The translations under genes were made by a program, and so were the position numbers. A stretch of 64,000 bases of DNA, taken from assembly GCA_019637445.1 (NCBI GenBank), contig JAHBVS010000001.1:965586-1029585 (forward strand). Reading direction: 5' to 3'. Positions 30,458 to 50,414 of this stretch are shown in pieces (position 1 is the stretch's first letter; each line of letters begins with the position of its first letter). A model generated the notes under the pieces. That model saw only the letters and a program-made list of their open reading frames with translations, did not search any database and was not told the DNA's origin. Source of the DNA: Gemmatimonadaceae bacterium (GTDB taxonomy: Bacteria > Gemmatimonadota > Gemmatimonadetes > Gemmatimonadales > Gemmatimonadaceae).

Positions 30458-32989
30458 CTACATCGAGAACCAATACGAGGCCTTGATCAGGAACGTGTTG
30501 CTGGCCCGGGTCTGGAACAGGTCGCGGTAGTCGCGGCCGAAGTCGAAGGTGCCCGGATTCGAGAAGTCCTCGCGCCCCTGCTGCCAGACCAGGAAGAGCA
30601 CGGAGCCGGGCCGGTACTCCCAGCGCAGCACGGTATTGGAACGGAACTGCTTGAAGTTGAAGTCGTCCGGGGTGGTTGCCGTGTACGGCTGGAAGCGGTC
30701 CTCGTAGCGGTCCGCCGTCGGGTCGGCCATCTCGCGCAGGTTCGAGTAGTCGCCCGAGGTGATGAACGGCTGGGCGTACAGCTGCAGCGACAGCGTCGGC
30801 GTCATCGTGTAGTCCAGCCGTGCCGTCAACGAGGTGGTCCGCTGGTCCAGGCGGGCAAACGTGTAGGCCCGACCGGTCGGCGTATCGAAGTTGCCGTACC
30901 ACTGCTGGTCGTTCTTGCTCCAGTAGTAGCCGAGGCCCAGGCTGCCCTGCACGCTGCTGGCGATGCGGAAGGCAATCGACGGATCGACGCCCCACTCGCT
31001 GGTCTCGCTGGCGTCCGGCAGCACGAAGAATCCCTGGAGCACGAGGCTGATCGGCTTGCGACCGTCCGTCTCAAAGCCGAACCAGCCGTTCTGCCGGAGG
31101 TTGCGGCGTAGCGCCGGACCGCCGCGGGCGGAGCGGTCGTCGTAGACCTCGCCGATGCCATTCACGTTCCAGCCCGTCCAGAACCACCACTGGTTGGGCA
31201 GCTCGCCGTTGATATTGACGTTCGCACCGGAGTTGAGCCGCATCCCCTGCGTGTTCCAGTCGTTCCACTGGTTGAAGTTCACGAACATGCGGCGGTAGTA
31301 CTTGGTCGGCGTCTGGAACTGCAGGCCGTACCAGTTGCCGTTCTGCAGGATGTCGGCCCGCGACAGGAATCCGGCGTCGTTGACCTCGTAGCCGGCGCTG
31401 GTGCGCGTGGCCCCGAAGTTGAACCGCGTGATGCCGCCGCCCGTCTTGCTCACGCCGGCGTTGATGCGCGATCCCCCCATCGACGTCATCGCGGAGTCCA
31501 CGGTGAAGCGCGAGTCCGGCCGCTGGTACTGGTGCACCGAGGTGAGCTGCGTGCGCAGCATCGCCTCGGGACTACCAGTCACGTACGAGCCCACGGCGGA
31601 GCCGCTGACCTGATAGTTGTTGTTCCAGAAGCGATGCCGCGCGTCGATGCCGAACGCGTACGCGCCGTCACGCAGGTAGTCGCGCGAATCGTCGTCCAGC
31701 GACCGATTCGTGGCCGTGACCATCATGCCGACGCCGGAGTTGCCGCCGCGCAGGTCCTGCTGCAGGCGGGCGACCAGATAGTTGGTCTGCGGCTCGATCG
31801 TCCGGTTGCTGGCGCCCAGCTCGCGCTGGGTCACCGCATTGAGGAAGCCCACGTTCAGCCCACCGGCCGTGCGGCCCGTGATCTTGGCCGCGCCGAGGAT
31901 GGTGCTGTTCTGCGGGTTGTGCACGTCGTAGTAGGTGCCGCTGAGCTGCGGTGAACGGCCCACGCGACGCGAATAGAACAGGTTGTTGGCAAACGAGAAG
32001 ATGCCCGCACCTTCCAGGAAGAAGGGCCGCCGCTCCTCGAAGAACTGCTCGAAGGCCGACAGGTTGAGCACGCCAGGATCCGCCTCGACCTGGCCGAAGT
32101 CCGGGTTCACCGTGGCGTCGAGCGTGAGGTTCGAGGTGATACCGTACTTGAGGTCGGCACCCACGGTCGTCTGCTGGTAGCGCTCGAATCCTCCGCCGGC
32201 CCGCGGGCGCGGCGCGTTCGACGAGACCGTGTAGGGCAGCATCTCGAGACGGCGCGGCGAGGCGATGCCCGCAAAGCCGTCCACCTCGCCCCACTGCGAC
32301 ACGAGGCCGGTCTGGCTGCGGCGGTACAGCGGCCAGGACACGCGCTCGTTGTAGCGCGCCACATCGCGCCAGATCGCGAATCCGAACGTATGCTCGTCGG
32401 CCGCCGGGAAGCGCAGCTGGTTGAACGGCACGCGGAACTCCGCGGTCCAGCCCTGCTCATCCACCGCGGTCACCACGTCCCAGACACCGTCCCAGGACGC
32501 ATCCTCGTTGCTGTCGTTCGACAGGTAGAAGTCGCGCTTCACGCCGCGCGGGTTCACGGAGAAGCGGAAGCCCGTGCGCTTGTCGTTGTAGGCGTCCACC
32601 ATCAGGTGGATGTAGTCGCTCTGCGTGCGCTGGTCGCGCCGCGAGAGGAAGGCCATCACCGAGTCCGGCGACGGATCGAAGGCGCGCACGTACACGTAGA
32701 GGTACTTGGCGTCGTAGGCGACCTTCGCCTCCGTCCGGAAGCGCGGATCGCCATCCTCAACGGGATCGTGCTGGCGGAACTGCGTGATGGCCGGCGCAAC
32801 GCGCCAGATCTCATCCGTATCCTTGCCGTCGAGCACCGGAGGTGTCTCGGCGCGGGCCGCCGTGGCCGCGCGCGCGGTCGGCGCGGGGATCACGACGGGA
32901 TCGGGGCTGCTGACGACTCCAGTACGGGGCGGGGCGGTTGGGCCGGCGGCGACAGCCGACTGCAAGGCGAGAACGAGCGGCAGCAACAT
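30458..32989 (-). CDS. DUF5916/CBM9-like outer-membrane protein
   Basis: The 843-residue protein has a signal peptide (MLLPLVLALQSAVAAG) and then a CBM9-like beta-sandwich: PPVLDGKDTDEIWRVAPA, KVAYDAKYLYVYVRAFDPSP and the RTGFRFSVNPRGVKRD pattern. Its C-terminal DUF5916 region is about 550 residues of aromatic-rich beta strands, including NLTLDATVNPDFGQVEADP and FFEERRPFFLEGAGIFSF, ending IKASYWFSM. The end and strand content suggest an outer-membrane barrel. Such proteins are frequent in Bacteroidetes and Gemmatimonadota; their job is not established. ATG 32989 is set by the signal peptide; the frame stays open upstream but that part is arginine- and serine-rich and not protein-like. Confidence 0.85.
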   Translation of the reverse strand: MLLPLVLALQSAVAAGPTAPPRTGVVSSPDPVVIPAPTARAATAARAETPPVLDGKDTDEIWRVAPAITQFRQHDPVEDGDPRFRTEAKVAYDAKYLYVYVRAFDPSPDSVMAFLSRRDQRTQSDYIHLMVDAYNDKRTGFRFSVNPRGVKRDFYLSNDSNEDASWDGVWDVVTAVDEQGWTAEFRVPFNQLRFPAADEHTFGFAIWRDVARYNERVSWPLYRRSQTGLVSQWGEVDGFAGIASPRRLEMLPYTVSSNAPRPRAGGGFERYQQTTVGADLKYGITSNLTLDATVNPDFGQVEADPGVLNLSAFEQFFEERRPFFLEGAGIFSFANNLFYSRRVGRSPQLSGTYYDVHNPQNSTILGAAKITGRTAGGLNVGFLNAVTQRELGASNRTIEPQTNYLVARLQQDLRGGNSGVGMMVTATNRSLDDDSRDYLRDGAYAFGIDARHRFWNNNYQVSGSAVGSYVTGSPEAMLRTQLTSVHQYQRPDSRFTVDSAMTSMGGSRINAGVSKTGGGITRFNFGATRTSAGYEVNDAGFLSRADILQNGNWYGLQFQTPTKYYRRMFVNFNQWNDWNTQGMRLNSGANVNINGELPNQWWFWTGWNVNGIGEVYDDRSARGGPALRRNLRQNGWFGFETDGRKPISLVLQGFFVLPDASETSEWGVDPSIAFRIASSVQGSLGLGYYWSKNDQQWYGNFDTPTGRAYTFARLDQRTTSLTARLDYTMTPTLSLQLYAQPFITSGDYSNLREMADPTADRYEDRFQPYTATTPDDFNFKQFRSNTVLRWEYRPGSVLFLVWQQGREDFSNPGTFDFGRDYRDLFQTRASNTFLIKASYWFSM

Positions 32990-33091: not shown

Positions 33092-33106
33092 GTCCTTTCG
33101 ACGAAA
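33092..33106. promoter_or_regulatory. Operator-like inverted repeat in divergent region
   Basis: CCTTTCG and CGAAAGG flank a single A in the 274-bp region between the divergent DUF5916 and mgtE genes. The symmetry and position would suit a regulator site; no regulator can be named. Confidence 0.3.
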
Positions 33107-33263
33107 GGGTTGCGCCGGTTCTTCCCCCAGGCACGTTCTGGCCCGCCTGTGACCCGTCCGTGACGGCGGGTTCCACGCCTTCCGCGCCGCCGTTACCTTC
33201 GGGTGTCCCCTCCCGCCCCTATAAGGACTCGCGCGCGCGAGCCCGGCTTCCGGCGAGGTCCCC

Positions 33264-35581: not shown

Positions 35582-36490
35582 ATGACCACGTCCTCCCGCG
35601 AGTTGAAGATCGACCCGGCCGCCTTCGGCGCCGGCACCTTCTTCACACTGCTTGCGGCGGCCGGCTTTGCGGCGGTCGCCATCCTTACCTCGCTGGCCAC
35701 GGCCGCGGGGCTCTCGTTGGCCACGGTGCTGGCTTGGCGCTACACGCTCTCCGCCGTGGTGCTCACCGTGTGGGTGGGACTGCACAACTACAAGCGCATT
35801 CCTCCGCGTGAGATGTTGGTGCTACTCAGCGCGGGAGGCTTCGGCCAAGCGTTGCTCGTTGGGGTGGCCCTCAGCGCGCTTCGGTACATCCCCGCGGCAA
35901 CGCTGGCCTTTCTCTTCTATACGTATCCGGCGTGGGTGGCGCTCTTTCAGTCCATCCGCGGCGCAGAGAAGCTGGATGCGCGTCGTGCCACAGCGCTGGC
36001 ACTCAGCTTCGTCGGCATCGGCGTGATGGTCGGGATGCCGGGCACGGCGGGCATCGACTGGCGCGGTGTGGCACTGGCCCTCGGCGCGGCGCTGATCTAC
36101 GGTGCCTACATCCCGATGATGCGCGTGCTCACGAAGGACCATCCGGTTGCGCCCGTGTCTGCGTACACGAAGATCGGCTCGGCCGTGGCATTCCTCGTCG
36201 TCGCGTCTTTCACGCAGAGCTTCACCTACCAGATCCCACTTGAGACGTGGGGCGTGCTGCTGATCCTCACGATCTTCAGCACGGTGCTGCCGGGCGTGTT
36301 CTTCCTGATGGGCCTGATCCGCCTCGGCCCCGTACGCACGGCCATCGTCTCCACCGTTGAGCCCTTCCTCACGGCCCTGCTTGGCGTGGTGGTGCTCTCA
36401 CAGGCGCTCACGCTGCCGACGATGCTGGGCGGTGCGCTGATCGTGGCGGCGGTGGTGCTACTGCAGTTCCGCCGGGACCGCGTCGCCTAG
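35582..36490 (+). CDS. EamA/DMT family transporter (second of a tandem pair)
   Basis: The 302-residue protein has ten helices in two EamA repeats. It shares with the preceding gene the motifs AATLAFLFYTYPAWVALF and LGPVRTAIVSTVEPFLTALLG at equivalent places, and the overall length. It probably exports a metabolite; no substrate can be assigned. ATG 35582 is clear. The pair follows mgtE on the same strand and may be cotranscribed. Confidence 0.88.
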   Translation: MTTSSRELKIDPAAFGAGTFFTLLAAAGFAAVAILTSLATAAGLSLATVLAWRYTLSAVVLTVWVGLHNYKRIPPREMLVLLSAGGFGQALLVGVALSALRYIPAATLAFLFYTYPAWVALFQSIRGAEKLDARRATALALSFVGIGVMVGMPGTAGIDWRGVALALGAALIYGAYIPMMRVLTKDHPVAPVSAYTKIGSAVAFLVVASFTQSFTYQIPLETWGVLLILTIFSTVLPGVFFLMGLIRLGPVRTAIVSTVEPFLTALLGVVVLSQALTLPTMLGGALIVAAVVLLQFRRDRVA

Positions 36491-36581
36491 CCACGCGGCA
36501 TCCCGGGGCCTCACCGGGCGCGCGTAGGCGGCCTCGAAACGCCAGGGAAGGATTTGGGCGCATGGCACGTCCCATAGCCGG

Positions 36582-37142
36582 ATGACGACCCGCGGAGCGA
36601 CGGCGAGTGACGCCGAGGCAACGCTTGTGGCCGGCTGCCGCCGTGGCGAGCCGGACGCGCAGCGCGCGTGCTTCGACCGCTATCGCGACCGCGTGCACTC
36701 CATTGCGTTGCATTTCCTGCGCGGCGACCACGACGCCGCACAGGACGTGACCCAGGAGGTCTTCGTGCGCTTCTTCCGTGCCGCGCCAAACTTCCGCGCC
36801 GATGCGCGGCTGTCCACCTACTTGTACCGCGCGGTGGCCAATGCCTGTACGGACGAGCTGCGGCGACGGCGACGTTTCGTGTTTGGCGATGTCGCCGAGC
36901 ACCTGCATCCAGCGGTCGAACCGACGGACGACTCCGAGCGCTCGGCCGTGCTGGCCGCCGTGGCCAAACTTTCGCCCAAGCTGCGCCTGGTGGTGCTGAT
37001 GCGATACTTCGATGAACTGAGCTACGATGAGATTGCGGCGGCGTTGGAGACCACGAGCGGCACCGTGGCCTCGCGCCTAAGCCGCGCGCACGCAGCGTTG
37101 GCGGAACTACTCGCGCCGGAACCGGAGGCGGCCCGTGTCTGA
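36582..37142 (+). CDS. ECF-type RNA polymerase sigma factor
   Basis: The 186-residue protein has sigma region 2 (about 30-95: FLRGDHDAAQDVTQEVFVRFF with the core-binding pattern and STYLYRAVANACTDELRRRRR) and region 4 (about 125-180: LSPKLRLVVLMRYFDELSYDEIA and TSGTVASRLSRAH, a helix-turn-helix). It lacks regions 1 and 3, as ECF sigmas do. Its stop overlaps the start of the FecR-type gene by 8 nt, so the sigma factor is coupled to its likely regulator. Confidence 0.93.
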   Translation: MTTRGATASDAEATLVAGCRRGEPDAQRACFDRYRDRVHSIALHFLRGDHDAAQDVTQEVFVRFFRAAPNFRADARLSTYLYRAVANACTDELRRRRRFVFGDVAEHLHPAVEPTDDSERSAVLAAVAKLSPKLRLVVLMRYFDELSYDEIAAALETTSGTVASRLSRAHAALAELLAPEPEAARV

Positions 37143-38214
37143 TCTCGAGCGCAACCAGCGCCTGGTGACCGGCGACAGCAACGACGCTGTGCGCCGCATC
37201 GAGGCCCGACTCTCCGAAGCCACTCGGCGTCACGATGCCCTGCCAGACCCCGAGGCCCGCTGGCGCGACATCCAGGCCGAACTGCAGCGGCCTTCTCGCG
37301 CGGACGATGGTTTCGCACGCCGACGCGTACCGCGTTCGCTGGCAGTAGCCGCTGGACTTGCTGCGCTGATGCTCGGCGGCCTCGCGGGTGCCGTGCGACA
37401 ATACGCGGCACCAGACGCTTGGCGGGTCGTGTCGTTCGGCAGCGATGCGGCACCCTCCGCGCTCACGGCAGGCGAGTGGCTGGAGACCGACTCGGACCAG
37501 CGCCTGCGTTTGCAGGTCGGACGCATCGGCACGGCCGATGTGGGACCCGACAGCCGGCTGCGACTCGAGCGCGGCAAGTGGAGCGAGCATCGGCTGTCGC
37601 TCGAGCGCGGAAGCCTCGACGTCATCATTGAGGCACCGCCGCGGTTGTTCTTCGTGCAGACGCCTCGGGTGCTTGCCACCGATCTTGGTTGCGCGTACAC
37701 GTTGGAGGTCGCCGAGGGCGGCGCGACTCGCCTCGCCGTCACTGCCGGTTGGGTAGAGCTCGGCGAGAACGGCCGGCGCTCACTCGTGCCGGCTGGTATG
37801 GAAGCATCCGTTGCAGCCGATGGCGTGCCGGGCACTCCTGTAGTTGCCGAGCTTCCAGCCGGCGCGCGAGACGCCCTGGCGCGCATCGATCGCTCGCAGG
37901 GCACGGCGGACGATGTCGCACTGCTCGTTGCGGCGATGCCCGCGCCCGAGGCCGCCGTGGTGACGCGGCAACTCGCGGGGATCACGCTGTGGCACGCGCT
38001 GCAGCGCGTCGAAGCCGACCTGCGGGCGCCGCTGGTGCAGGCCCTCGCGCAGCTCAACCCGGCCCCGACCGGCGTGACCACGGAAGGAATCGTCGCCCTG
38101 GACCGTCGTATGCTCGACGACTGGCGCCGGAGTCTGAACCCGATGTGGGGGGAGGAGGACGCACCGGTCTGGGTCGCCCTCGGTCGCAAACTCTGGCTCT
38201 GGGCGATGGACTGA
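37135..38214 (+). CDS. FecR-domain membrane protein (putative anti-sigma regulator)
   Basis: The 359-residue protein has a cytoplasmic N-terminus of about 60 residues and one transmembrane helix (SLAVAAGLAALMLGGLAGAV, about 64-83). A periplasmic FecR beta domain follows (about 100-235; LTAGEWLETDSDQRLRLQVG, RLERGSLDVII, RVLATDLGCAYTLEV, VTAGWVELG). A helical C-terminal part of about 110 residues is not typical. FecR proteins relay surface signals to ECF sigmas; here no TonB receptor is present. GTG 37135 overlaps the sigma gene. Confidence 0.85.
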   Translation: MSDLERNQRLVTGDSNDAVRRIEARLSEATRRHDALPDPEARWRDIQAELQRPSRADDGFARRRVPRSLAVAAGLAALMLGGLAGAVRQYAAPDAWRVVSFGSDAAPSALTAGEWLETDSDQRLRLQVGRIGTADVGPDSRLRLERGKWSEHRLSLERGSLDVIIEAPPRLFFVQTPRVLATDLGCAYTLEVAEGGATRLAVTAGWVELGENGRRSLVPAGMEASVAADGVPGTPVVAELPAGARDALARIDRSQGTADDVALLVAAMPAPEAAVVTRQLAGITLWHALQRVEADLRAPLVQALAQLNPAPTGVTTEGIVALDRRMLDDWRRSLNPMWGEEDAPVWVALGRKLWLWAMD

Positions 38215-38235
38215 CTTCATCCCCGGAGGTGTGTG

Positions 38236-38973
38236 ATGCGACGCTGGAGAACGCGGGTGCTCGTGCCGATGGCGGCAGCGATGGCGATGGCGATGGCGGC
38301 AGTACCGTACCACGGCGGCTGGGTGATCGTGACGATGCACGAATGGCCCGAGGCGCTCGAGGCCGGCAAGGCGACCACATTGACGTTCTCGATGCGGCAG
38401 CACGGCGAGGAACTGCTCGCCGGCCGCGAACCCGTGCTGCAATTGAAGGCCCCTGGCCTGCTCGGCAGCCGGGAGAAGCTGCGCACCCAGCGTACCGAGC
38501 AGCCGGGGGTGTACCGCGCGACCTTCACGCCTGAGGAGGCCGGCGAGCTGCGGGTCAGTGTGGATACCGATTTCTACGGGTGGACGGCGCCGATGCTGCC
38601 GCTGGCGGTGCGCGCGAACGGAGCCGTGACGAATGGCTCGTCTGCCACCGCGACCCTGGCTGGCGCAGCGCACGGCCCGTTGTCGCGCGGCCAGCAGTTG
38701 TTCGTTGCGAAGGGCTGCGCCGGCTGCCACGCCAAGACCGACGACAATGCGCTTGAAGAGATCCGCGTCGTGCAAGTCGGTCCCAACCTCACGGGGCGCA
38801 CGTATCCCGCCGGCTGGGTGGAGCGGAAAATCCTCGACCCAGCGTCGCAGCGCAGTGTCGGCATCAGCGCGAATGCGACGATGCCGCAGCTCGAGGTGAC
38901 GGCCCCCGAGGCTGCGGCAATCGCGGCCTACGTGAATGCGCGGCAGATAGCCGCGGGATCAGCTAGACACTAG
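38236..38973 (+). CDS. Exported protein with YtkA/FixH-like domain and cytochrome c domain
   Basis: The 245-residue product has a signal peptide and then a beta-sandwich of the YtkA/FixH type (about 28-130: WVIVTMHEWPEALEAGKATT and GVYRATFTPEEAGELRVSVD). The C-terminal mono-heme cytochrome c domain carries CAGCH (Cys161, Cys164, His165), with the distal Met probably in NATMPQLEVT. It is a periplasmic electron carrier or sensor of unknown partner. GGAGGT lies 5 nt before ATG 38236. It follows the ECF sigma/FecR pair by 21 nt and is probably in their operon. It overlaps the convergent acyl-CoA dehydrogenase gene by 11 bp. Confidence 0.85.
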   Translation: MRRWRTRVLVPMAAAMAMAMAAVPYHGGWVIVTMHEWPEALEAGKATTLTFSMRQHGEELLAGREPVLQLKAPGLLGSREKLRTQRTEQPGVYRATFTPEEAGELRVSVDTDFYGWTAPMLPLAVRANGAVTNGSSATATLAGAAHGPLSRGQQLFVAKGCAGCHAKTDDNALEEIRVVQVGPNLTGRTYPAGWVERKILDPASQRSVGISANATMPQLEVTAPEAAAIAAYVNARQIAAGSARH

Positions 38974-40876
38974 CCACTTCACGCGCAGGTTCAGCCGACG
39001 CCGGCACGGGCTCCAGCATCTGCTCGTACGGCGTCGGCTCGACCACGCCCCGCTCCAACCAGGCGTGCTCGCCGCGCACGATGGCCTGCGCAAGCTTGTA
39101 CAGCGTGGGATCGTGCTTGCCGAACAGGTTGCGGAACGACGCCTCGATGCGGTCGCGGGACTCGCGGCAGAAGGCATCGGCGAGCGCCAAGGCTTCCTTG
39201 TTGCCCTCTTTGGCCAGCATCTGCGCGCGCGAGAGCGTCGCGCTCATCGCATACAGCTCGGCGCCGATGTCCACCGCGCGGAAGAGCACCATCTGTCGCT
39301 TCTCCAGCGCGGGACCGAAACGCAGCATCGCGTGGAACAATGCGCGGCCGAGCCGGTTCGTGGCGCGCGCCACGTAGCGCGCGTGCTTGGCATTGCGGCC
39401 GAACTCACCGTAGAGCCCGAGCGAGGGGATCCAGCGCGCCGGATACCAGGTGGCGTAGAATGGCGCCGCCTTCAGCAGGTACTTCACCCGCGTGCCGAAG
39501 GAGCTCTTCGGGTCCACAATCGGGAAGGCGATCGAGAAGTGCGCGTCCACTGCCTCGCGGGCGATGAACAGCCGCATGATCTCGCTCGAGCCCTCGAAGA
39601 TCAGGTTGATGCGCGAGTCGCGCATCGCGCGCTCGACCGGGAACGGCGTCTCGCCGCGCGCACGGAGTGAATCGGCGGTCTCGTAACCGCGGCCGCCGCG
39701 GATCTGCAGCGCGTCATCCACGCTGTGCCAGGCCAGCTCCGTGTTGAACATCTTGGCGATCGCCGCCTCGAGCCGGATGTCCGTCCCGCCACGCTCGTAG
39801 AGCGCGGTGGAGAGGTAGGCCACGGATTCCATCGCGAAGGCACTGGCCCCGAGCCGCGCAATCTTCTGCGCAATCGCCTCGTGCTTGGCGATCGGCTGGC
39901 CCCACTGCACTCGTTCGTTGGCCCACTGCCGTACGCCGTTGAGCAGCGCCTTGGTGGCGCCCGCCACGCTGGCGGGAATCGTCAGGCGTCCGGTGTTGAG
40001 CGTGATGAGCGCGAGCTTGAGTCCCTTGCCCTCGCCCCAGAGGATGTTCTTGCTCGGCACCTTGACGTTCTCGAAGGACAGCCAGCCGTTCTCGATCGCC
40101 TTGAGGCCCATGAAGCGGCAGCGGTGCTTGATGGAGATGCCCGCCGACTTGGCATCTACGATGAACGCCGTGATCTGCTTCTTGCGCAGCCTGCCGTTCA
40201 CCATGCGGTCCGGCGTGCGCGCCATCACGACGAAGAGGTCGGCCCGCGTGCCGTTCGTGCACCAGAGCTTCTCGCCGTTGAGCACCCAGTGCGTGCCATC
40301 CTCGCTGGGCGTGGCGGTGGTGCTCATGTTGGCGGGATCCGAACCCGCGTTCACTTCGGTCAGCGCGAAGGCCGTGATGCCGCCCTTGGCGATGCGCGGG
40401 AAGAATTCCTTCTTCTGTTCGTCCGTGCCGAAGAGCTTGAGCGGCTGCGGCACGCCGATGGACTGCGAGGCGGAGAGCAACGCGCAGAGCGAGCCGCACT
40501 TGGCGGTGACCAGCTCCATTGCCTTCACGTAGGTCATCTGCGAGAGGCCGAGTCCGCCGTACTCCTTCGGGATCTTGATGCCGAAGGCGCCAATCTCGCG
40601 CAGTTCCTGCACGTAGGCTTCGGGAATGTCGCCGGTGCGGTCCACCATATCCGCGTCGTAACGCCCCAGAAACTCGGCGAGCTTGCCGAGGAAGACCTTG
40701 GCGTCGGCGGCGTCGGCGTTGTCGCTGGCCGGGAATGGATGGATGAGCTCAGGCCGGAATCGGCCGAGGAAGAGCTCCTTCACGAAGCTCGGGTGCGCCC
40801 ATTCGGATTCGCGCGCGTCTTCGGCGACGTCGCGGGCCTCCTGCTCGGAGGCGAGGGCGTGGGATTGGTCGGCCAC
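38963..40876 (-). CDS. Acyl-CoA dehydrogenase (long form)
   Basis: The 637-residue flavoenzyme performs the first oxidation of fatty-acid beta-oxidation. FAD and substrate motifs are present: KIPKEYGGLGLSQM, FALTEVNAGSDPANM, WVLNGEKLWCTNG, QIRGGRGYETADSL and INLIFEGSSEIMRLF with the catalytic base at Glu428. About 170 residues follow the core, like the very-long-chain (ACADVL/ACAD9) type, which suggests long-chain substrates. GTG 40876 has GGAGGTG at 7-nt spacing. No other fat-oxidation gene is adjacent. It ends inside the end of the cytochrome gene. Confidence 0.93.
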   Translation of the reverse strand: MADQSHALASEQEARDVAEDARESEWAHPSFVKELFLGRFRPELIHPFPASDNADAADAKVFLGKLAEFLGRYDADMVDRTGDIPEAYVQELREIGAFGIKIPKEYGGLGLSQMTYVKAMELVTAKCGSLCALLSASQSIGVPQPLKLFGTDEQKKEFFPRIAKGGITAFALTEVNAGSDPANMSTTATPSEDGTHWVLNGEKLWCTNGTRADLFVVMARTPDRMVNGRLRKKQITAFIVDAKSAGISIKHRCRFMGLKAIENGWLSFENVKVPSKNILWGEGKGLKLALITLNTGRLTIPASVAGATKALLNGVRQWANERVQWGQPIAKHEAIAQKIARLGASAFAMESVAYLSTALYERGGTDIRLEAAIAKMFNTELAWHSVDDALQIRGGRGYETADSLRARGETPFPVERAMRDSRINLIFEGSSEIMRLFIAREAVDAHFSIAFPIVDPKSSFGTRVKYLLKAAPFYATWYPARWIPSLGLYGEFGRNAKHARYVARATNRLGRALFHAMLRFGPALEKRQMVLFRAVDIGAELYAMSATLSRAQMLAKEGNKEALALADAFCRESRDRIEASFRNLFGKHDPTLYKLAQAIVRGEHAWLERGVVEPTPYEQMLEPVPASAEPAREVASV

Positions 40877-41774: not shown

Positions 41775-44700
41775 TTGCGCGCCACGGCCCCCGGCCGCCT
41801 CGCGATTCCCGCGGCGGTGTTCCTGCTCTCGCTCCTTTCCTGCGGCCGTGAGGTGACGGGCCCGGAGAACGGCGTCTTCAGCGGCGGGCGTCGCGTCGGT
41901 GCCCTGGCGGTGGCCCCCGAGTATCCGTCGTTGATGGCCTCCGTACTCGGCGGGAGCCAAGTGGTGCCCTTCGAGCGTGTGCGGCTGGTGCTGCGCCGCA
42001 CGGACGGTGCCGTGGCGCTGGACACCCTGATTGCCTTCCCCGCCACCGTGGATTCACTCACGTTGGCGTTCCTGGTTCCACTGCCGGTCAACGCGCCCGC
42101 TGAGGGCGTGTCGATGGCGCTCGCGATGGCGTACATCAATGCGGCGGGCGACACCGTCTTCAGGGCCGGGCCGCAGTCGGTGCTTGTCCCTCCCGTCCGC
42201 GACGGGGTGACCCAGCCGCCCGTGAGCACGCCGATTCGCTATACCGGTGTTGGCGCCGGTGCCGCGTCGGTGCAGATCACGCCGGACACCGGAACGCGAG
42301 TGGCCGGGAGCTCCAGCGGATTCACGGCGACCGCACTCGACGGCCAAAGCCAGCCGATCGCGGGTACGCCGCTGCTGTTCTACACGCTCGACTCCACGCG
42401 AGCGTCCGTCACCAACCCCTCGACCGGCGCCACGACCTGGCTGCCGTCGCGCGGGACGGCACGCATCGTCGCCGCGCTGCCGGACGGTTCGCGGGCAGAC
42501 ACCGCGAGCATCAGCGTCACGCTGCCCGCCTCGCAGTTGGTCCTCGGCTCTGGCGACCTCCAGACTGCGCCACTCGGCAACCCACTCGGCGCGCCGATTG
42601 TCCTTCGCACACTAGCGAGCGACGCGGTCCCCGTCTCCGGCGTGATCGTCAGCTTCGCCGTGAGCACGGGCGGCGGCTCGCTGACGGTCACGACCGACAC
42701 GTCCGACACCAACGGCGAGGTCTCCACCGGATGGACACTGGGCAGCGCCTTCGGTGTGCAGACCATCACCGCAACGGCCGCGGGCCTCAGCGGCTCACCG
42801 CTCACTGTCAGTGCCACTGCGAGCGCAGGAGCGCCCGCACAGCTCGCCGTCGTCTCGCAGCCGGTCGCAGGTGTGGCCGGCGAGACCCTGGCGCCCGCCA
42901 TCGTCATTGCCGTCGAGGACGAGCAGGGCAACCTCGTCGAGACCTTCACGGGTGCCGTGACGCTCGCGTTGCCGCCCGCTGCCGACGCCACGCTCGGCGG
43001 CACGACGACGGTGAATGCCGTCGCCGGCCTCGCGACGTTCAACGACCTCAACCTCGACATCGTCGGCGCGTACGGCCTCATCGCCACGAGCGGCGCGCTG
43101 ACGCCCGACACCACGGCGGCCATCACCGTCACCGCGGCGGCCGCCGCCCGGCTGACCTTCATCACCTGGCCGTCCGGTGGAGTCGCCGGCACGACGCTGG
43201 CGCCCACCACGACCGTGCGGGCGCTCGATGCGTTCGGAAACGACGCGACAGGCTTCACGGGCAGCATCTCGCTGCAGTTGCTGGATGGCACGGGCACGCT
43301 GGGTGGCACGACGAGCGTGGCTGCAGTGGCCGGCGTCGCGACCTTCGCTGACCTCAGCGTCGACCTGATCGGCGATGCGTATACCCTGCGCGCGTTCAGC
43401 GGCGCGCTGCAGCCAGACACCACAACCGCGTTCACGATCACGCCGGCAGCCGTTGCCGGACTGACCTTGCTCGGCGGCGACGGACAGACTGCCGTGGCCG
43501 CGACGCTGCTGCCCGATGTGATTGCGCTGCGCACCGTGGACGCCTTTGGCAATCGTGTGCCGGGCGCTGGTGTCACGTTCAGCATCCTGACGGGCGGCGG
43601 TGATGTCGTCCCGCCGACGACAACCGCCGACACCTCCGGGCGCGCCGTCGCCAACTGGACGCTGGGCGCAACGCTCGGCACGCAGACACTGCGGGTCTCG
43701 CTCACGGGAGTGCCGGCAGTGACGCTCGATGTGTCCGCCACGGCGACCGTGGGCCCGGCTTCGCAGTTGGTCGTCACGCAGCAGCCCGCCGACACGGTGG
43801 AGGCCGGCGCGACCATCCCGATCCTGGTCGAAGCGCGCGACGCGCTCGGCAACCTCGTCCCGACGTACGTCGGGACGGCGAACATCACGCTGCTGGTCAA
43901 TCCCACGCTCACTACGCTCGGCGGTACGACGAGCGCTGCGTTCGTCGGCGGCGTGGCCAGCCTGGCGCCGACGATTCCCGCGAGCGGCGCCGGTTACCAG
44001 TTTGAGCTGAGCGCCGGCGCGCTGAGCAACGCCACATCGGCGGTGTTCGTCGTTGGCGCGGCGGCGGCCGCAACCTTCGAGATCGTCTCCGGAACACCAC
44101 AATCGGGCCAGGTGGGCACGGCCTTCCCGACACCGATGGTCGTGCGCGTCCTCGACGGCTTCGGCAATCCTGTGCCAGGGCACACGACGACGTGGACGTC
44201 GCTGGCGGGGGCAAGCGCCGTCGACGCCGTCACGGTGCTCACTGATGCCGCGGGCGAGGCGCAGAATGGCGCGACCTTCGGCACGACGGCCGGCGACGGC
44301 CAGCCCGGCGTGGGCGTCACCACCGCCGGCCTGGCCACCGTGCTGCAGTTCGACGTTGATGTTGCCCCAGGCGCACCCGCATCGATCGTGCTGGTCGATG
44401 GCAACACGCAGACGGAGACCGTGGACCTCCCGCTGCCGACGCCGCTGTCGGTGCGCGTCACGGACGGCTTCGGCAACGGCATCGCCGGCGTCACGGTGCT
44501 CTGGGGCGTGAGCGCCGGACAGGGACAGTTCACGGACACCACAAGCACCACGGACGCTGCCGGCGTCGCGAGCACCGTCGCCATTCTCGGGACGGTCGCC
44601 GGCGCCGTGCAGTTCGAGGCCTTGGTGGACGGCGTGGCCGGATCACCGGTGCTCTTCGATGCCACCGCGACGCCAGACATCCCGGTGGTGGTGCAGGCGC

Positions 44701-47700
44701 TGACCGGCGATGAACAGACGGCGACGGCGGGCGCGGCGTATGCGAATCCGTTTGTCGTACGCGTCGAGGACATCCACGGCAATCCGGTGCCCGGCGTGAG
44801 CGTCACGTTCGACGTACAGACAGGTGCGGCCAGCTTCAGCGACACCACGGTGGTGACCGACCTCAACGGCGAGGCGCAGACGACCGCCGTCGCATCGTCC
44901 ACGGCGGGGGCGGGCACCATCGGTGCCGACGCTGCCGGTGCGACGCCGGCGACGTTCAACGTCACGATCACGGCGGCCACGGCATTCAGCCTGGAGTACC
45001 TGCTCGGCGATGCACAGCAGGATACGGTCGGTGTGGAGCTTGCCGACTCGCTGCGCGTGCTTGTGCGTGACTCCTTTGGCAATCCAGTACCGAACGTGTC
45101 CGTCGATTGGGCGGCGACAGGCGGCTCGGTGTCCGCCGCGACCGCGCTGACGTCTGCAAGTGGTGAGGCCGCGATCGCGTACACGTTGGGTACGGTAGCC
45201 GGCGCCCAGAGCGCCACAGCCAGCGTCGCCGGACTGAGTGGGTCGCCGGTGCCGTTCACGATGACGGCCATTGCCGGCGCGCCGTCGGCGCTCGTGGTCG
45301 TGAGTGCACCTGACACCGTTGTCAGCGGCGTCGTGCCGCCGCCACTCGAGGTCGAGGCGCGTGACATCCACGGCAACCTTGTCACCTGGTTCGTGGACGA
45401 CGTCACGGTCACACCGACGGACGCGCCTGACGGCGCCTTCACCGCCGGCACGACGACGCGCGCCGCGGTCGGAGGCGTCGCGAGCTTCGATGATCTCGTC
45501 TTCGGCACACCGGGCCCCTGGCTCATCGAGTTTGCGAGCGGTGATCTGACCATCGGCGCGAGCCTCGAGGTCATCCCGGGTCCGCCGGCCAGCTTCACGA
45601 TCGAGTCGGGCAACGGCCAGGCCGGTCCCACCTCTGCGCTGCTTCCGGCACCGCTGGTGGTGCGACTGCTCGATGCCCTGACGAACCCCGTCGTCGGTGA
45701 CACGGTGATTTTCACCGTGACCAGTGGCGCCGGCGTGCTCGGCAACGGATTCGTCGTGGACACCGCCCTGACCGATGCCAACGGCGATGCGCAAGTGACG
45801 TGGACGCTGGGCCCCGACACGTTGGCGACGCAGACCGTCGAGGCGGCATACCCGGGCTTCACGGCGCTGGCGTTCACGGCCACGCCGCTGCCAAACGTCG
45901 CGAACCGCAGCTGGACCGGCGACGCGCTCAACGGCGCCTGGTTCGACACGGGCAACTGGGCTGGCGGCGTGATCCCTGCCGCCACCGACTCTGTGCTGAT
46001 CCCAGCGGGCCGGCCGAGTTATCCGGACTTTGGCGATCTGTCGGGCAGCGATGTCACTATCGGCGGCCTCACGGTGCGCAGTGGTGCCAATATCGCGATG
46101 GACATCGGCGATCTGTACGTCGGCGGCAATGTCACCGTGGAATCGCCAGGCGGCATCACATCGCCAGGCGGGCGCGTGATCGCCAACGGCGCCGGGGCGC
46201 ACAGCATTCGTGGCAACATCCCGCTGGTGGTCATCGCCGACGGCGGCTACGCACTCAACGGCGCGCTGATCACGACGCTTGATCTCTCGATCACCGGCGG
46301 TGTGCTCGACGTCGGACTGTGGACGCTTGGGGTGGGTCGAGACCTGTTCACGTCAGGTGTGGGCGCACTTGTGATGCCGGCGTTCTCCGACGTACAGGTC
46401 ACGCGCAATGCCTCGCTGCAGGGTGACGGCAGCGCGGGGCGCCTGCAGGGCGGCACCATGACCGTGCAGGGAGACTTCTCTGCCGGCACCACCTTCGCGG
46501 CAGCCGTCGACCACACGGTCAACCTGGTGGGCGTCGGGTTGCAGACCGTGGCCATCACCGACGCAGACACCACCTACAGCGCGACCTGTTCGGCGGCCTG
46601 CTTCGGGCGGCTCACGTCGCTCAAGGGGATCGGCGACGGTGGCTTGGTGTTCGCGAGCCACGCGAAGGCGATCAACGGCATGCAGATCTCGGGCGACACC
46701 ATCGGCGCGAGTGGGCACACGCTGATCGGTGCCGTCACGATGGACCTGAACACCACGGTTGTCTCCGCGCAGCGCGTGGCGTACTCGGACAACCTGCTGC
46801 TCGGCAGCACGCGCATTGTGGACACGTTGGTGGCATTCAACGCCGGCACGCCGTGGCCGGTGGTCAGTGTGGACGCGATCCCGACATTGGTGGCGGGTGC
46901 GCGCGAGCTGAACGCCGTGCACAGCGGCGCGATCATCGTGGGGGCTGGTGGCGCGCTCGATATCGTCGGGGCCACTGAGGTCGGCGCCGGCTTCTACACG
47001 CGCGACAATGGCGTGCTGCAGATGTCGGATGCCGCAGACACGCTCGTGGTGGCCGGCAGTGTGGAGTTTGCCGGCGGACCGTCGCTGCTGACCAACGGCG
47101 CGTTGATCGTGCAGGGTGACTTCGCGCAGCACACAAATGCGGACGCGTTCCGCGCTGCGCCGGCGCATGAGACGGTGTTTGCCGGCAATGCGAGCTTCAC
47201 CGTGACGTTCGCGAACCCCGGGTTCGCACCGACGGAATCGCAGTTCGGAACCTTCGTGTTCGAGCACCCGATCTCGTCGAGCATGGACATCGGGAGCGAC
47301 ATCTACGCATCGGGCGCGCTCGAGACCCGCGGCAACAACCCATACTGGATCAACGGCTCGAACAACCGGCTGCTCACCCGCGGCGCCATCAATGTCGCCG
47401 ACGTGACGTTTGCGGCGGTCCAATGGGAGTTGCAGGACACGCAGCCGGTCGTTGGCGCACTGTTCAACCTCGTCTTCTCGGGCATGGATCCGGCGATCTC
47501 GCAGATGCGGATCCTGCGCGCGGGCGGGACCATTCTGTTGCAGTCGCCGACCTTCGATCCCGTGTTGAGCGGTGGTGCGTACCTGGAGGTCGAGGATGGC
47601 AACCCCGGTGACCTGGATACGCTGACCGTCGCCATCTCGAACCCAGCCCCTCAGCTGCACGGGGGTGGCATCATCGAGGCCAATGGAGCGCGGATCACCG

Positions 47701-50414
47701 GCTGGCCGGGCTTCGCAGAGATTGTGTGGAACGGCTCGGTCAGCGTGGACTGGTTTGATCCCGACAACTGGGTGCAGGGTGTGGTGCCGACCGCGGCGGA
47801 CTCGGTAGTCATCCCGCAAGTCGCGACGATGCCGACCATCTCGGCGCCGGCCACGGTGCGCGTGCTGCTGCACCAGGCGAACCCGGGCGTGGTCGGGGTC
47901 AACGATGTTCTCACGATCCTCGAGCGCGTCTCGGCAGGCTCAGACGGCGCCGGGCTGCAGTGCGGCCCCGCCGGCCGCATTGTGTTCGCCCCCACGGACA
48001 CCCTGCTCTTCACCGGCGACTTGCTGGGTTGCGATGTGCGCGTGACATCCGGCGTCGCGGCTCCCGCTGGCTACAGCAGCGTGGGCGACAGCCTCGAGAT
48101 CACCGGCACGGCGCAGCTGGATCTGCGCAACCAGGAGCTCTTCGTTTCCGGCGACTTGGTCACGGATCAGCAGGGCACGCTGCGGATGACGGATCCAGCC
48201 GCCACGCTCTACGCCAACGGCGGCGCGTTCTTCCACGGCGGGTCGACGGCCGGCCTGCTCACCGCTGGCACGATCTTCCTCAGCGGGGAGTTCCAGCAGC
48301 TCGCCACATACAGCGCAGAGGCGTTTGCCGCTGACCCTGGCCACCTCACACAGCTTACGGCGAGTGTCCTGCAGCCGAACTTCTTCGCCACCCCGGAGCT
48401 CGGCGCCGGCAGCTCGCACTTCGGCGACCTGCAGCTCGAGACCCCGGAGTGGTACCTGCAGTCCCCGACCGCCGTCAGCGGTTCGCTGATCCAGCCCGTC
48501 GGCGGGCCGAATGCCGTGGTGTCCTCGGCGTCGTCGCAGGTACTGGCGGTCCAGGGCCTCAGCGTCGAGCGCGACCTCACGTTCCGCGGCGTGCACCTCC
48601 AGATCGCCGGCGCGGCGCCGATGACCCTCACCGGCAACCTCACCTTCGAGCAGATGGTGGGGACAATGCCGCAACTCGACCTTGAGCGCGCGGGCGACAC
48701 GCTCACGGTCGGCATCCTGACCTTCGATACGACTGCGTCACACACGGGGCCGTTCGTCGACGTGCAGGACATCTCCGTCGATGGTGACTCGCTGACCTTG
48801 CTCGCCAGTGCCATCACGCCACTGTACCACGGCGGGCGTCTCGCGGTGCTTGGCGAAGGTCGCGTTCCCGGGTGGGACGCCGCGGAGCCCGGCGCCTTCA
48901 CGCCGAACTATTGGACAGGCGGCGGCGCGGACGGCCTCTGGGCCACGGCCGCCAACTGGAGCGAAGGGCGTGCGCCCCTGGCAATGGACAGCGTAGTCAT
49001 CAATCCCGGCGGGCCGGTGACGGTCACGCTCGACGCCAACGCGGACGTGGCCTACCTCCACGTCGGGGAGTCATCGGCCGTGGAGTTCCTGCACACGGCC
49101 GGGTTCGTCCTACAAATCGACAGCCTGTCGTTCTTCGGGACAACGTCCACCCTGCGCATTGGCGGCGGCGCCGAACTCACGGGCGACGGCAGCTTGGTGG
49201 TGTTTGGCAACCTGGACTGGCAGGACGGCTGGATGACGGGCTTCGGGAGCACCAGCGTGGCAGCAGGTGGGACGGCGACGCTGGGCTCGGTGGACGACAT
49301 CGTGCTCGACGACCGCGTGCTGTTGATCGGCGGCACGGCGACGATGGGTTCGGCCCAGCTGTTCGTGGAGAACTTCCCCACGCTCTACGTGATGGCGGGC
49401 GGCGAGCTCACGATCCCCGACACGCGCACGCTGACCGTGGGCACGGGCGATCCGTCGCTGTACGTGGACGGCACACTGCGCATCGCCGGCGCGCCGGCGG
49501 ACACGGTGCAGATCCACTGGTTCACCACCATTGGCCTCGATGGCGTCCTCGACGTGCAGAGCGGTACGCTGATCATGGTGTCGCCCTCATTGCTCTATGA
49601 CACCAACATCGCGGACGGGGCGGCGCTGAACCTGCGCGGCGCGGCCGAGTCGTACGGCACGATGAGCGTTTCCACGGGCGGGCGACTGCAGCTCGAATCC
49701 GGCGGCCTCGGCCCGGACACCGGTATCCACGCGTTCTATGGAAGCCTGACGGGCACCGGAGCGGTGCACGCCGTCAACGCGGTTTCGGTGAACGTCGAGG
49801 CGGGGATGGAAATCGACTCGTTGGTCGTGCAGAACGTGACGATGGAGTTCAATTCGCCGGTGGACACGATGTTCGTGGGACGAGGTGTGTACCTAGGCGG
49901 CGGGGTCTTCAGCGGAACGGGCGTGGTCGGCGTGCGGGAGTCGTTCGTCGGTCAGATCGGAAACATGGACGGCAGCGGGACGCTTGCGGTGTTGTCGGGG
50001 GCAACGGCAAGCCTGCAGGGCCCCGTGCGCGGATGGTTGCTGGACGTGGCGGGCACACTGGAGTGGGGCGACTGGAACTTGACCTTCTCGACAGATCCCA
50101 GCAGCGGGCAGTACACGTCGATGCTCGTCCGCAGCGGCGGCGTGTTCGACATCCTGCACGGCGCGACGGCCCGAGATCTCTCCGGCACGGGCACCGACAC
50201 CGCGCCAGACGCCAACGTAATTCAGGTGCTGGCTGGTGGTACTATCCGAAAGTCGAGCGGGACGGGAACCAGCACCATTCACGCGCGCGTGGAGATGGCC
50301 GGCACGTTCGAGTTCGTCTCGGGCACCATCAACGTACAAGGCACCTGCGACAACCCCATTCCAAGCGCGACCGGGTCCGGCACATTAACCGGTAGCTGCG
50401 GAGCGTACCCGTAA
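41775..50414 (+). CDS. Giant lipoprotein with ~11 invasin-like Ig repeats and beta-solenoid-like C-terminal modules
   Basis: The 2879-residue protein starts at TTG 41775 with a lipoprotein signal ending LLSLLSC (Cys23). Residues about 250-1375 hold 11 Big_1/invasin-type Ig repeats of about 100 residues, with lines such as VRVLDGFGNPVPGHTTTW. From 1377 three sections each begin with a WxG...W...NW..G..P..DSV.I motif (about 1377, 1985, 2377), followed by long stretches of short beta strands with glycine and aspartate, like a right-handed solenoid. No autotransporter barrel, LPXTG or T9SS-type C-terminus is present, so lipidation is the only visible anchor. It is probably a long surface filament or adhesin. 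It converges with the DUF72 gene. Confidence 0.85.
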   Translation: MRATAPGRLAIPAAVFLLSLLSCGREVTGPENGVFSGGRRVGALAVAPEYPSLMASVLGGSQVVPFERVRLVLRRTDGAVALDTLIAFPATVDSLTLAFLVPLPVNAPAEGVSMALAMAYINAAGDTVFRAGPQSVLVPPVRDGVTQPPVSTPIRYTGVGAGAASVQITPDTGTRVAGSSSGFTATALDGQSQPIAGTPLLFYTLDSTRASVTNPSTGATTWLPSRGTARIVAALPDGSRADTASISVTLPASQLVLGSGDLQTAPLGNPLGAPIVLRTLASDAVPVSGVIVSFAVSTGGGSLTVTTDTSDTNGEVSTGWTLGSAFGVQTITATAAGLSGSPLTVSATASAGAPAQLAVVSQPVAGVAGETLAPAIVIAVEDEQGNLVETFTGAVTLALPPAADATLGGTTTVNAVAGLATFNDLNLDIVGAYGLIATSGALTPDTTAAITVTAAAAARLTFITWPSGGVAGTTLAPTTTVRALDAFGNDATGFTGSISLQLLDGTGTLGGTTSVAAVAGVATFADLSVDLIGDAYTLRAFSGALQPDTTTAFTITPAAVAGLTLLGGDGQTAVAATLLPDVIALRTVDAFGNRVPGAGVTFSILTGGGDVVPPTTTADTSGRAVANWTLGATLGTQTLRVSLTGVPAVTLDVSATATVGPASQLVVTQQPADTVEAGATIPILVEARDALGNLVPTYVGTANITLLVNPTLTTLGGTTSAAFVGGVASLAPTIPASGAGYQFELSAGALSNATSAVFVVGAAAAATFEIVSGTPQSGQVGTAFPTPMVVRVLDGFGNPVPGHTTTWTSLAGASAVDAVTVLTDAAGEAQNGATFGTTAGDGQPGVGVTTAGLATVLQFDVDVAPGAPASIVLVDGNTQTETVDLPLPTPLSVRVTDGFGNGIAGVTVLWGVSAGQGQFTDTTSTTDAAGVASTVAILGTVAGAVQFEALVDGVAGSPVLFDATATPDIPVVVQALTGDEQTATAGAAYANPFVVRVEDIHGNPVPGVSVTFDVQTGAASFSDTTVVTDLNGEAQTTAVASSTAGAGTIGADAAGATPATFNVTITAATAFSLEYLLGDAQQDTVGVELADSLRVLVRDSFGNPVPNVSVDWAATGGSVSAATALTSASGEAAIAYTLGTVAGAQSATASVAGLSGSPVPFTMTAIAGAPSALVVVSAPDTVVSGVVPPPLEVEARDIHGNLVTWFVDDVTVTPTDAPDGAFTAGTTTRAAVGGVASFDDLVFGTPGPWLIEFASGDLTIGASLEVIPGPPASFTIESGNGQAGPTSALLPAPLVVRLLDALTNPVVGDTVIFTVTSGAGVLGNGFVVDTALTDANGDAQVTWTLGPDTLATQTVEAAYPGFTALAFTATPLPNVANRSWTGDALNGAWFDTGNWAGGVIPAATDSVLIPAGRPSYPDFGDLSGSDVTIGGLTVRSGANIAMDIGDLYVGGNVTVESPGGITSPGGRVIANGAGAHSIRGNIPLVVIADGGYALNGALITTLDLSITGGVLDVGLWTLGVGRDLFTSGVGALVMPAFSDVQVTRNASLQGDGSAGRLQGGTMTVQGDFSAGTTFAAAVDHTVNLVGVGLQTVAITDADTTYSATCSAACFGRLTSLKGIGDGGLVFASHAKAINGMQISGDTIGASGHTLIGAVTMDLNTTVVSAQRVAYSDNLLLGSTRIVDTLVAFNAGTPWPVVSVDAIPTLVAGARELNAVHSGAIIVGAGGALDIVGATEVGAGFYTRDNGVLQMSDAADTLVVAGSVEFAGGPSLLTNGALIVQGDFAQHTNADAFRAAPAHETVFAGNASFTVTFANPGFAPTESQFGTFVFEHPISSSMDIGSDIYASGALETRGNNPYWINGSNNRLLTRGAINVADVTFAAVQWELQDTQPVVGALFNLVFSGMDPAISQMRILRAGGTILLQSPTFDPVLSGGAYLEVEDGNPGDLDTLTVAISNPAPQLHGGGIIEANGARITGWPGFAEIVWNGSVSVDWFDPDNWVQGVVPTAADSVVIPQVATMPTISAPATVRVLLHQANPGVVGVNDVLTILERVSAGSDGAGLQCGPAGRIVFAPTDTLLFTGDLLGCDVRVTSGVAAPAGYSSVGDSLEITGTAQLDLRNQELFVSGDLVTDQQGTLRMTDPAATLYANGGAFFHGGSTAGLLTAGTIFLSGEFQQLATYSAEAFAADPGHLTQLTASVLQPNFFATPELGAGSSHFGDLQLETPEWYLQSPTAVSGSLIQPVGGPNAVVSSASSQVLAVQGLSVERDLTFRGVHLQIAGAAPMTLTGNLTFEQMVGTMPQLDLERAGDTLTVGILTFDTTASHTGPFVDVQDISVDGDSLTLLASAITPLYHGGRLAVLGEGRVPGWDAAEPGAFTPNYWTGGGADGLWATAANWSEGRAPLAMDSVVINPGGPVTVTLDANADVAYLHVGESSAVEFLHTAGFVLQIDSLSFFGTTSTLRIGGGAELTGDGSLVVFGNLDWQDGWMTGFGSTSVAAGGTATLGSVDDIVLDDRVLLIGGTATMGSAQLFVENFPTLYVMAGGELTIPDTRTLTVGTGDPSLYVDGTLRIAGAPADTVQIHWFTTIGLDGVLDVQSGTLIMVSPSLLYDTNIADGAALNLRGAAESYGTMSVSTGGRLQLESGGLGPDTGIHAFYGSLTGTGAVHAVNAVSVNVEAGMEIDSLVVQNVTMEFNSPVDTMFVGRGVYLGGGVFSGTGVVGVRESFVGQIGNMDGSGTLAVLSGATASLQGPVRGWLLDVAGTLEWGDWNLTFSTDPSSGQYTSMLVRSGGVFDILHGATARDLSGTGTDTAPDANVIQVLAGGTIRKSSGTGTSTIHARVEMAGTFEFVSGTINVQGTCDNPIPSATGSGTLTGSCGAYP
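42535..45900 (+). repeat. Array of ~11 Ig-like repeats within the 2879-aa lipoprotein gene
   Basis: Units of roughly 300 nt begin near 42535, 42835, 43140, 43455, 43755, 44065, 44380, 44680, 44975, 45280 and 45590. Each encodes a hydrophobic strand, a pattern like VRVxDxxGNPV and a small-residue strand. They differ enough to be individually recognisable. Confidence 0.75.

Follow-up and report, generated by a model that had tools for sequence, protein, structure and literature searches.

In the CnrYXH system of Cupriavidus, a single operon encodes a sigma factor, a membrane anti-sigma factor with a short cytosolic part, and a periplasmic sensor, CnrX. For the FecR-type anti-sigma factor PupR, the excerpts of the study available to us (PMC7186176) describe a juxta-membrane subdomain (110-238) that is followed by an STN subdomain (250-324) composed of beta-alpha-beta repeats, both of which are required for transducer binding. 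The available portion of a FoxR report (PMC11637429) similarly describes the TonB transducer FoxA as shielding FoxR from proteolysis in the absence of signal.

The locus considered here is located within a 64,000-nt stretch of DNA (hereafter the window, meaning the whole stretch that was analyzed) from the 3.35 Mb genome of a Gemmatimonadaceae bacterium, and the coordinates of its features are listed in Table 1. A first-pass annotation had described a sigma factor gene and a FecR gene overlapping by 8 nt and followed by a cytochrome gene instead of a TonB receptor gene. Inspection of the open reading frames (ORFs) bears this out: the reading frames of SIG and FECR share 8 nt, the third gene is CYT, and the next gene is a convergent acyl-CoA dehydrogenase on the opposite strand, leaving no TonB-dependent transducer gene beside SIG/FECR. 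The trio observation is correct and is not a product of chance. SIG contains sigma regions 2 and 4 only according to Pfam, which is the composition of an ECF sigma factor. For CYT, the ATG at 38236 is six bases 3’ of a GGAGG and is a likelier start than the GTG at 38233; its gap to the end of FECR is 21 nt. Located 5’ of the trio on the same strand are MgtE and two EamA genes, while the convergent dehydrogenase on the 3’ side is followed by SURF1. The window also includes two genes tied to cytochrome oxidase assembly, namely SURF1 itself (PF02104, 40948-41661) and one encoding a protein that is CtaA-like by eye (4578-5651), as well as two giant ORFs (41775-50414, 2879 aa; 51292-61644, 3450 aa) whose starts are of the export type; by eye, the former contains repeated Ig-like segments. 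Overall, we consider it fairly probable that SIG-FECR-CYT is one transcription unit and a heritable cassette, which functions as a TonB-independent autoregulated switch with CYT as its main output.

Table 1. Features of the SIG-FECR-CYT locus and its probable second target (window coordinates).
Feature	Coordinates	Strand	Basis or details
CBM9_1 + DUF5916 protein	30458..32989	-	PF19313 2e-79, PF06452 1.6e-08
Probable second target promoter, GGAA-N18-CGTC	33100..33125	-	upstream of DUF5916 gene
Predicted ECF-type autoregulated promoter, GGAAGGAT-N14-CGTCCCAT	36546..36575	+	pattern match, orthologue spacing, enrichment
SIG, ECF sigma factor	36582..37142	+	186 aa; Sigma70_r2 1.7e-17, Sigma70_r4_2 6.6e-16 (Pfam)
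FECR, predicted FecR-like transmembrane anti-sigma factor	37135..38214	+	359 aa, GTG start
FECR residues 3-51, short cytosolic helices, putative sigma-binding part	37141..37287	+	model; role inferred
FECR residues 67-90, transmembrane helix	37333..37404	+	model; hydropathy peak at residue 69
FECR residues 93-238, periplasmic FecR/CJM beta-domain	37411..37848	+	strands 95-226 in model
FECR residues 242-359, conserved helical domain at STN place	37858..38211	+	model, family alignment
CYT, exported YtkA-like + cytochrome c protein	38233..38973	+	246 aa from GTG
CYT residues 30-127, YtkA/FixH-like Ig-type domain	38320..38613	+	family Pfam matches, model
CYT residues 150-236, cytochrome c domain	38680..38940	+	CAGCH heme motif 162-166, candidate distal ligand Met217

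Seven genomes carry the trio (complete in 4, truncated at contig ends in 2, and with an inserted ORF in 1), also in unrelated surroundings, which answers in its favor the first-pass question of whether the three genes co-occur elsewhere. FECR was matched in 19 of the 249 genomes of a phylum sample and CYT in 53, many of the latter via the cytochrome part alone. The neighborhoods of 16 FECR places and 20 CYT places revealed the trio in G072 and G128 in addition to the window, and the rest contained either FECR relatives with other third genes or CYT relatives lacking the pair. A sigma search of 395 genomes identified the entire trio amid unrelated neighbors in G310, which belongs to another family and exhibits 65% (sigma), 50% (FecR), and 39% (CYT) identity to the window proteins. 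Scanning species genomes with the FECR alignment yielded 134 confirmed relatives, the best 80 of which were kept (loci L122-L201). These include the trios of JACQHC010000171 (L123), with CYT cut at the contig end, and CAMYLY010000009 (L124), with a 159-aa ORF between FECR and CYT. G395, a member of the same genus as the window, also holds the operon, with SIG cut by the contig start; both G310 and G395 recur in the alignment scan (as L122 and L131). Gene calls in the other genomes come from a simple in-house caller and are not annotation. It should be noted that the FecR-CYT gap of G310 contains a long inverted repeat (L116 5836-5929) that may act as an attenuator or be a mobile repeat. In G117, a sigma gene is truncated past region 2 and continues into a CYT gene whose two domains are separated by a stop (L080 2100-3171), and a second partial sigma copy is present at a contig end (L117 1-361); this is either a decayed cassette or an assembly fault.

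Within the genus of the window, FECR and CYT occur together in 4 of 17 genomes and are both absent from the other 13. The left-neighbor EamA gene is kept in 12 of these 13 operon-less genomes, and 6 of the 12 have an empty site in which the EamA gene and the acyl-CoA dehydrogenase are immediate convergent neighbors (gaps of 4, 39, 42, 64, 373, and 384 nt). The same interval in the window is 2472 nt and contains exactly the three cassette genes. With this all-or-none presence and the empty sites, the cassette is gained or lost as a unit. Phylogenetic trees agree with a single origin of the trio, as the 7 operon-linked rows of the SIG tree (quick method) form one clade (SH-aLRT 100), as do the 6 operon-linked rows of the CYT tree (100/98). 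An improbable alternative is that the sigma/FecR pair alone is the unit, with its downstream genes being swapped, and that CYT is a passenger that performs a housekeeping role in electron transfer or CuA/oxidase assembly and is merely expressed by SIG. Solo CYT relatives do outnumber the operon-linked ones in the phylum sample, but the operon-linked CYT proteins are a single clade, and CYT is all-or-none with the pair in the genus and is kept in other surroundings. From sequence comparisons, we regard the trio as a unit, its promoter, and its heredity as well supported.

All six SIG upstream regions compared (window, G072, G128, G310, L123, and L124) contain GGAAGRA-N15-CGTCY at identical spacing; G395 falls outside this comparison due to its cut SIG. 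With ≤2 mismatches, the pattern matches once in the window, compared to 0.05 expected matches, and in the entire window genome it matches the operon site plus one poor site inside genes, while a second tight pattern matches the operon site alone. The shorter GGAA-N18-CGTC is present in 11 of 66 sigma-FecR upstream regions vs. 0.2 in single-letter shuffles, and none of the 66 regions contains GGAA/CGTC at spacings of 16, 17, 19, or 20. One of the 11 (L166) is probably a chance match, as it is 165 nt upstream and has unlike flanks; the hits outside the CYT clade include four in Acidobacteria-type loci (L125, L133, L134, and L151), whose sigma factors adjoin the CYT clade in the tree. A separate promoter for the cytochrome gene, which the first-pass annotation had named as a point that would count against the three-gene unit, was not seen: the single predicted promoter is 5’ of SIG, and a search of 36300-39200 revealed neither a sigma-70-like promoter nor a terminator (averages of 0.2 and 1.0, respectively, in shuffles). 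The predicted -10 ends ~6 nt 5’ of the annotated SIG start (window 36546-36582), and the transcript would therefore be nearly leaderless, or the true SIG start is further downstream.

The tight patterns miss degenerate sites, such as that of G128, which is matched only by the looser GGAAGR-N16-CGTCY, and this leaves room for a wider regulon. The looser pattern identified 54 sites in 4 genomes (G000 6, G072 17, G128 21, and G310 10), whereas the reversed-pattern control identified more (18, 26, 24, and 13, respectively), suggesting that most of these sites are due to chance. Among the 30 of the 54 sites inspected as loci, 8 are intergenic. Three of these belong to the operons of the window, G072, and G310, and one to the DUF5916 gene of G072; two more, both in G310, are located 36 nt before a permease-like gene (L258) and 129 nt before an exported protein (L242, by eye), and the last two are on the minus strand (L240 and L246). 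The G310 sites L258/L210 and L242 are possibly extra targets or chance. A probable second SIG target, judging from its upstream sequence, is the DUF5916 gene; our literature search found no paper on DUF5916. Its site is present at the same spacing in G072, G128, and the window, with shifted flanking bases in the window, and is absent from all five operon-less genomes that have DUF5916 beside MgtE. In the operon-bearing G395, the CGTC is kept and GGAAGG has become GGATCG, a degraded -35. The site is thus present in 3 of 4 genomes with the operon and 0 of 5 without it (an exact test calculated by hand, which takes no account of relatedness, gives ~0.05). In the G395, G310, L123, and L124 genomes, GGAA-N16..20-CGTC was absent from the 450 nt 5’ of the gene at all 16 DUF5916-like loci, including 2 that stop short of the gene start.

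The window FECR alone has no match in Pfam or NCBIfam, and 11 of the 14 aligned members of its family match PF04773 FecR. Its model (57 sequences, mean pLDDT 89.4) predicts a cytosolic N-terminus followed by one transmembrane helix, as is characteristic of FecR-type proteins. The modeled residues 93-238 match PupR (6ovk; Z 16.1, rmsd 2.2, 125 aligned residues) and BDI_1681 (4m0n; Z 15.4), with the next unrelated row at 5.6, and we regard this predicted beta-domain as a genuine FecR domain. The C-terminus (residues 242-358) is predicted with high confidence to be composed of helices only, with no STN subdomain in the model, and it contains the motif TLWHLLxRV. Compared to known folds, it yields only weak alpha-solenoid matches (Z ≤4.5). 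The first-pass annotation had called this region an extra 110-residue helical tail. It is indeed helical, but it is not extra, as it is a conserved family domain at the STN place that aligns in all 14 members collected without a motif filter, with W286 and H287 invariant in every one. The beta-domain likewise contains an invariant Cys186 (DLGCAY) in 14/14 of the members collected without a motif filter, which is the sole conserved cysteine; a classical FecR of the phylum (L064) has GTRF at this position. That DLGC[AV]Y is also invariant among the 80 loci is an artefact, since the scan itself selected for this pattern, and the claim rests upon the 14 members. DUF4880/FecR_N was matched in 0/14 members at E 0.1, a search in which short divergent domains can be missed. 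A genuine FecR beta-domain would be compatible with ordinary cell-surface signaling through a TonB-dependent transducer whose gene lies in another part of the genome, but we find this highly unlikely, since the modeled FECR C-terminus is entirely helical and PupR is described as needing its STN to bind the transducer (PMC7186176, in excerpt).

The C-terminal part of CYT matches Cytochrom_C in Pfam, and C162, C165, H166, and M217 are invariant in all 21 aligned family members, as expected for a cytochrome c. The N-terminal domain of the window protein has no PF13115 match itself and only a weak Filamin match; in the family, YtkA (PF13115) is matched by 11/21 members and FixH by 4/21. The FixH/YtkA-like domain proposed in the first pass is probable at the level of the family, and the cytochrome c is evident in the window protein itself. 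A PDB sequence search with CYT returned nothing meaningful, and its model (6 sequences, mean pLDDT 62.8, with a poor cytochrome part) gave generic Ig/filamin fold matches. Work on YtkA/CtaK of Bacillus, which serves CuA assembly according to the available excerpts (PMC13344008), suggests by analogy that copper or oxidase assembly is a possible role for CYT. This precedent, the SURF1 gene nearby, and the varied third genes of the FecR family would also favor CYT as a passenger, the alternative that we ranked above as improbable.

FecR-like proteins with the DLGC[AV]Y and TLWHLLxRV motifs are paired with ECF sigma factors from no fewer than three deep clades across many phyla, and the groups that have them include Acidobacteria, Opitutaceae, Ignavibacteria, Planctomycetes, and Eisenbacteria. 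They have the FecR domain and helical C-terminus in common with the window protein, whereas their sigma factors mostly belong to other ECF clades. The sigma gene mostly overlaps the FecR gene, often by 4 nt. Among the best 80 of the 134 relatives, 55 loci have a same-strand gene ≤400 nt 3’ of FECR. Their other third genes encode a PLICH-type exported protein, Haem_bd, YtkA-like alone, a GTAEG-type small exported protein, an endonuclease-like protein (by eye), or a HEWGTF protein. CXXCH is present in 6 of the 55 (L122, L131, L139, L150, L195, and L182), which are not independent rows and of which L182 is probably incidental, vs. 4 of the remaining 458 genes called at these loci. Haem_bd third genes occur in Acidobacteria at L139 5979-6437 (1.7e-38) and L150 5978-6442 (1.1e-40), with a third gene alike in sequence at L195 5942-6448; these loci occupy two places on the sigma tree, apart from the CYT clade. 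In Eisenbacteria, L197 and L173 encode a small protein matching the CYT profile (the second gene in L173), with YtkA weakly matched in L197 only (0.017). The commonest recognized third gene encodes a protein that looks exported and has PLIC close to its N-terminal end (a text pattern identified 13, and a few more were seen by eye), and it occurs in all three deep sigma clades. Thus, the domain set of the FecR family itself stays constant as its partners change, with heme proteins recurring as a minority.

The same comparison bears upon whether CYT might itself be the sensor. It is conceivable, though we doubt it, that CYT acts in place of the TonB transducer and shields FECR from proteolysis under normal heme, copper, or redox conditions, such that CYT loss, immaturity, or redox change would free SIG, which would in turn restore CYT. 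By analogy, FoxA offers a precedent for a periplasmic partner that does the shielding, which lends appeal to the idea of CYT as a sensor. Likewise consistent are the loss of STN from FECR, a CYT clade that is always operon-linked, a Cys186 that is invariant in 14/14 members with no other conserved cysteine and is replaced in the classical L064 protein, and the recurrence of heme proteins as third genes in Acidobacteria. However, most FECR relatives have a non-heme third gene despite a conserved periplasmic part, and CYT therefore cannot be the general partner. In a slightly more speculative version, FECR would have abandoned outer-membrane signaling, and CYT would dock onto its helical domain or its Cys186 face and relay periplasmic heme, copper, or redox state in a near one-output homeostatic loop, with some Acidobacteria doing likewise with Haem_bd. 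The redox or heme signal raised in the first pass is something we infer from association, namely CXXCH third genes in two phyla plus an invariant periplasmic cysteine.

In the autoregulated switch that we favor, FECR would reside in the inner membrane and hold SIG, its presumed cognate sigma factor, via the short cytosolic N-terminus, while reading the periplasm via the FecR beta-domain and the helical domain that replaces STN. Since FECR is without the receptor-docking part, it probably senses something else. An envelope signal would inactivate FECR, probably by the kind of regulated proteolysis that acts on other membrane anti-sigma factors, and the freed SIG would transcribe its own operon, yielding CYT as the main output, with the DUF5916 gene probably being a second target. 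Since SIG is predicted to act on its operon and perhaps on the DUF5916 gene, the simplest reading is that CYT is the output; it would serve as the effector of the circuit and, being the main product, could also be a natural feedback reporter. Several observations do count against this switch: third genes vary so widely in the FecR family that the third gene need not belong to the mechanism, the tight promoter patterns miss degenerate sites and a wider regulon may exist, the -35 of the DUF5916 site is degraded in G395 despite its operon, and 13 of the 17 genus genomes live without the cassette.

Our literature search, which included an excerpt of PMC7406223, did not find a description of such a trio. 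FECR belongs to a large FecR-type family that is distributed among many poorly cultured phyla and has a helical domain at the receptor-docking place. As a small cassette with a predictable promoter and few likely targets, the locus makes sensing by a FecR without a TonB receptor directly testable, and if the cytochrome does prove to be the cue, it would constitute a new way to couple transcription to the periplasmic heme/redox state. Like classical FecR/PupR systems, it has an ECF sigma factor beside a predicted one-TM anti-sigma factor with a periplasmic FecR (CJM) beta-domain, but it differs in the helical domain in place of STN and the lack of an adjacent TonB transducer gene, and no DUF4880-type N-terminal match was obtained among the 14 FECR members. 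In comparison with CnrYXH, the periplasmic domains are unrelated and the third protein here is a cytochrome. Lastly, CYT resembles CtaK (YtkA) and the YtkA domain of YcnJ from Bacillus subtilis in having a YtkA-type domain in an extracytoplasmic protein, as described in the available excerpts (PMC13344008), whereas its own YtkA-type domain is fused to a monoheme cytochrome c.
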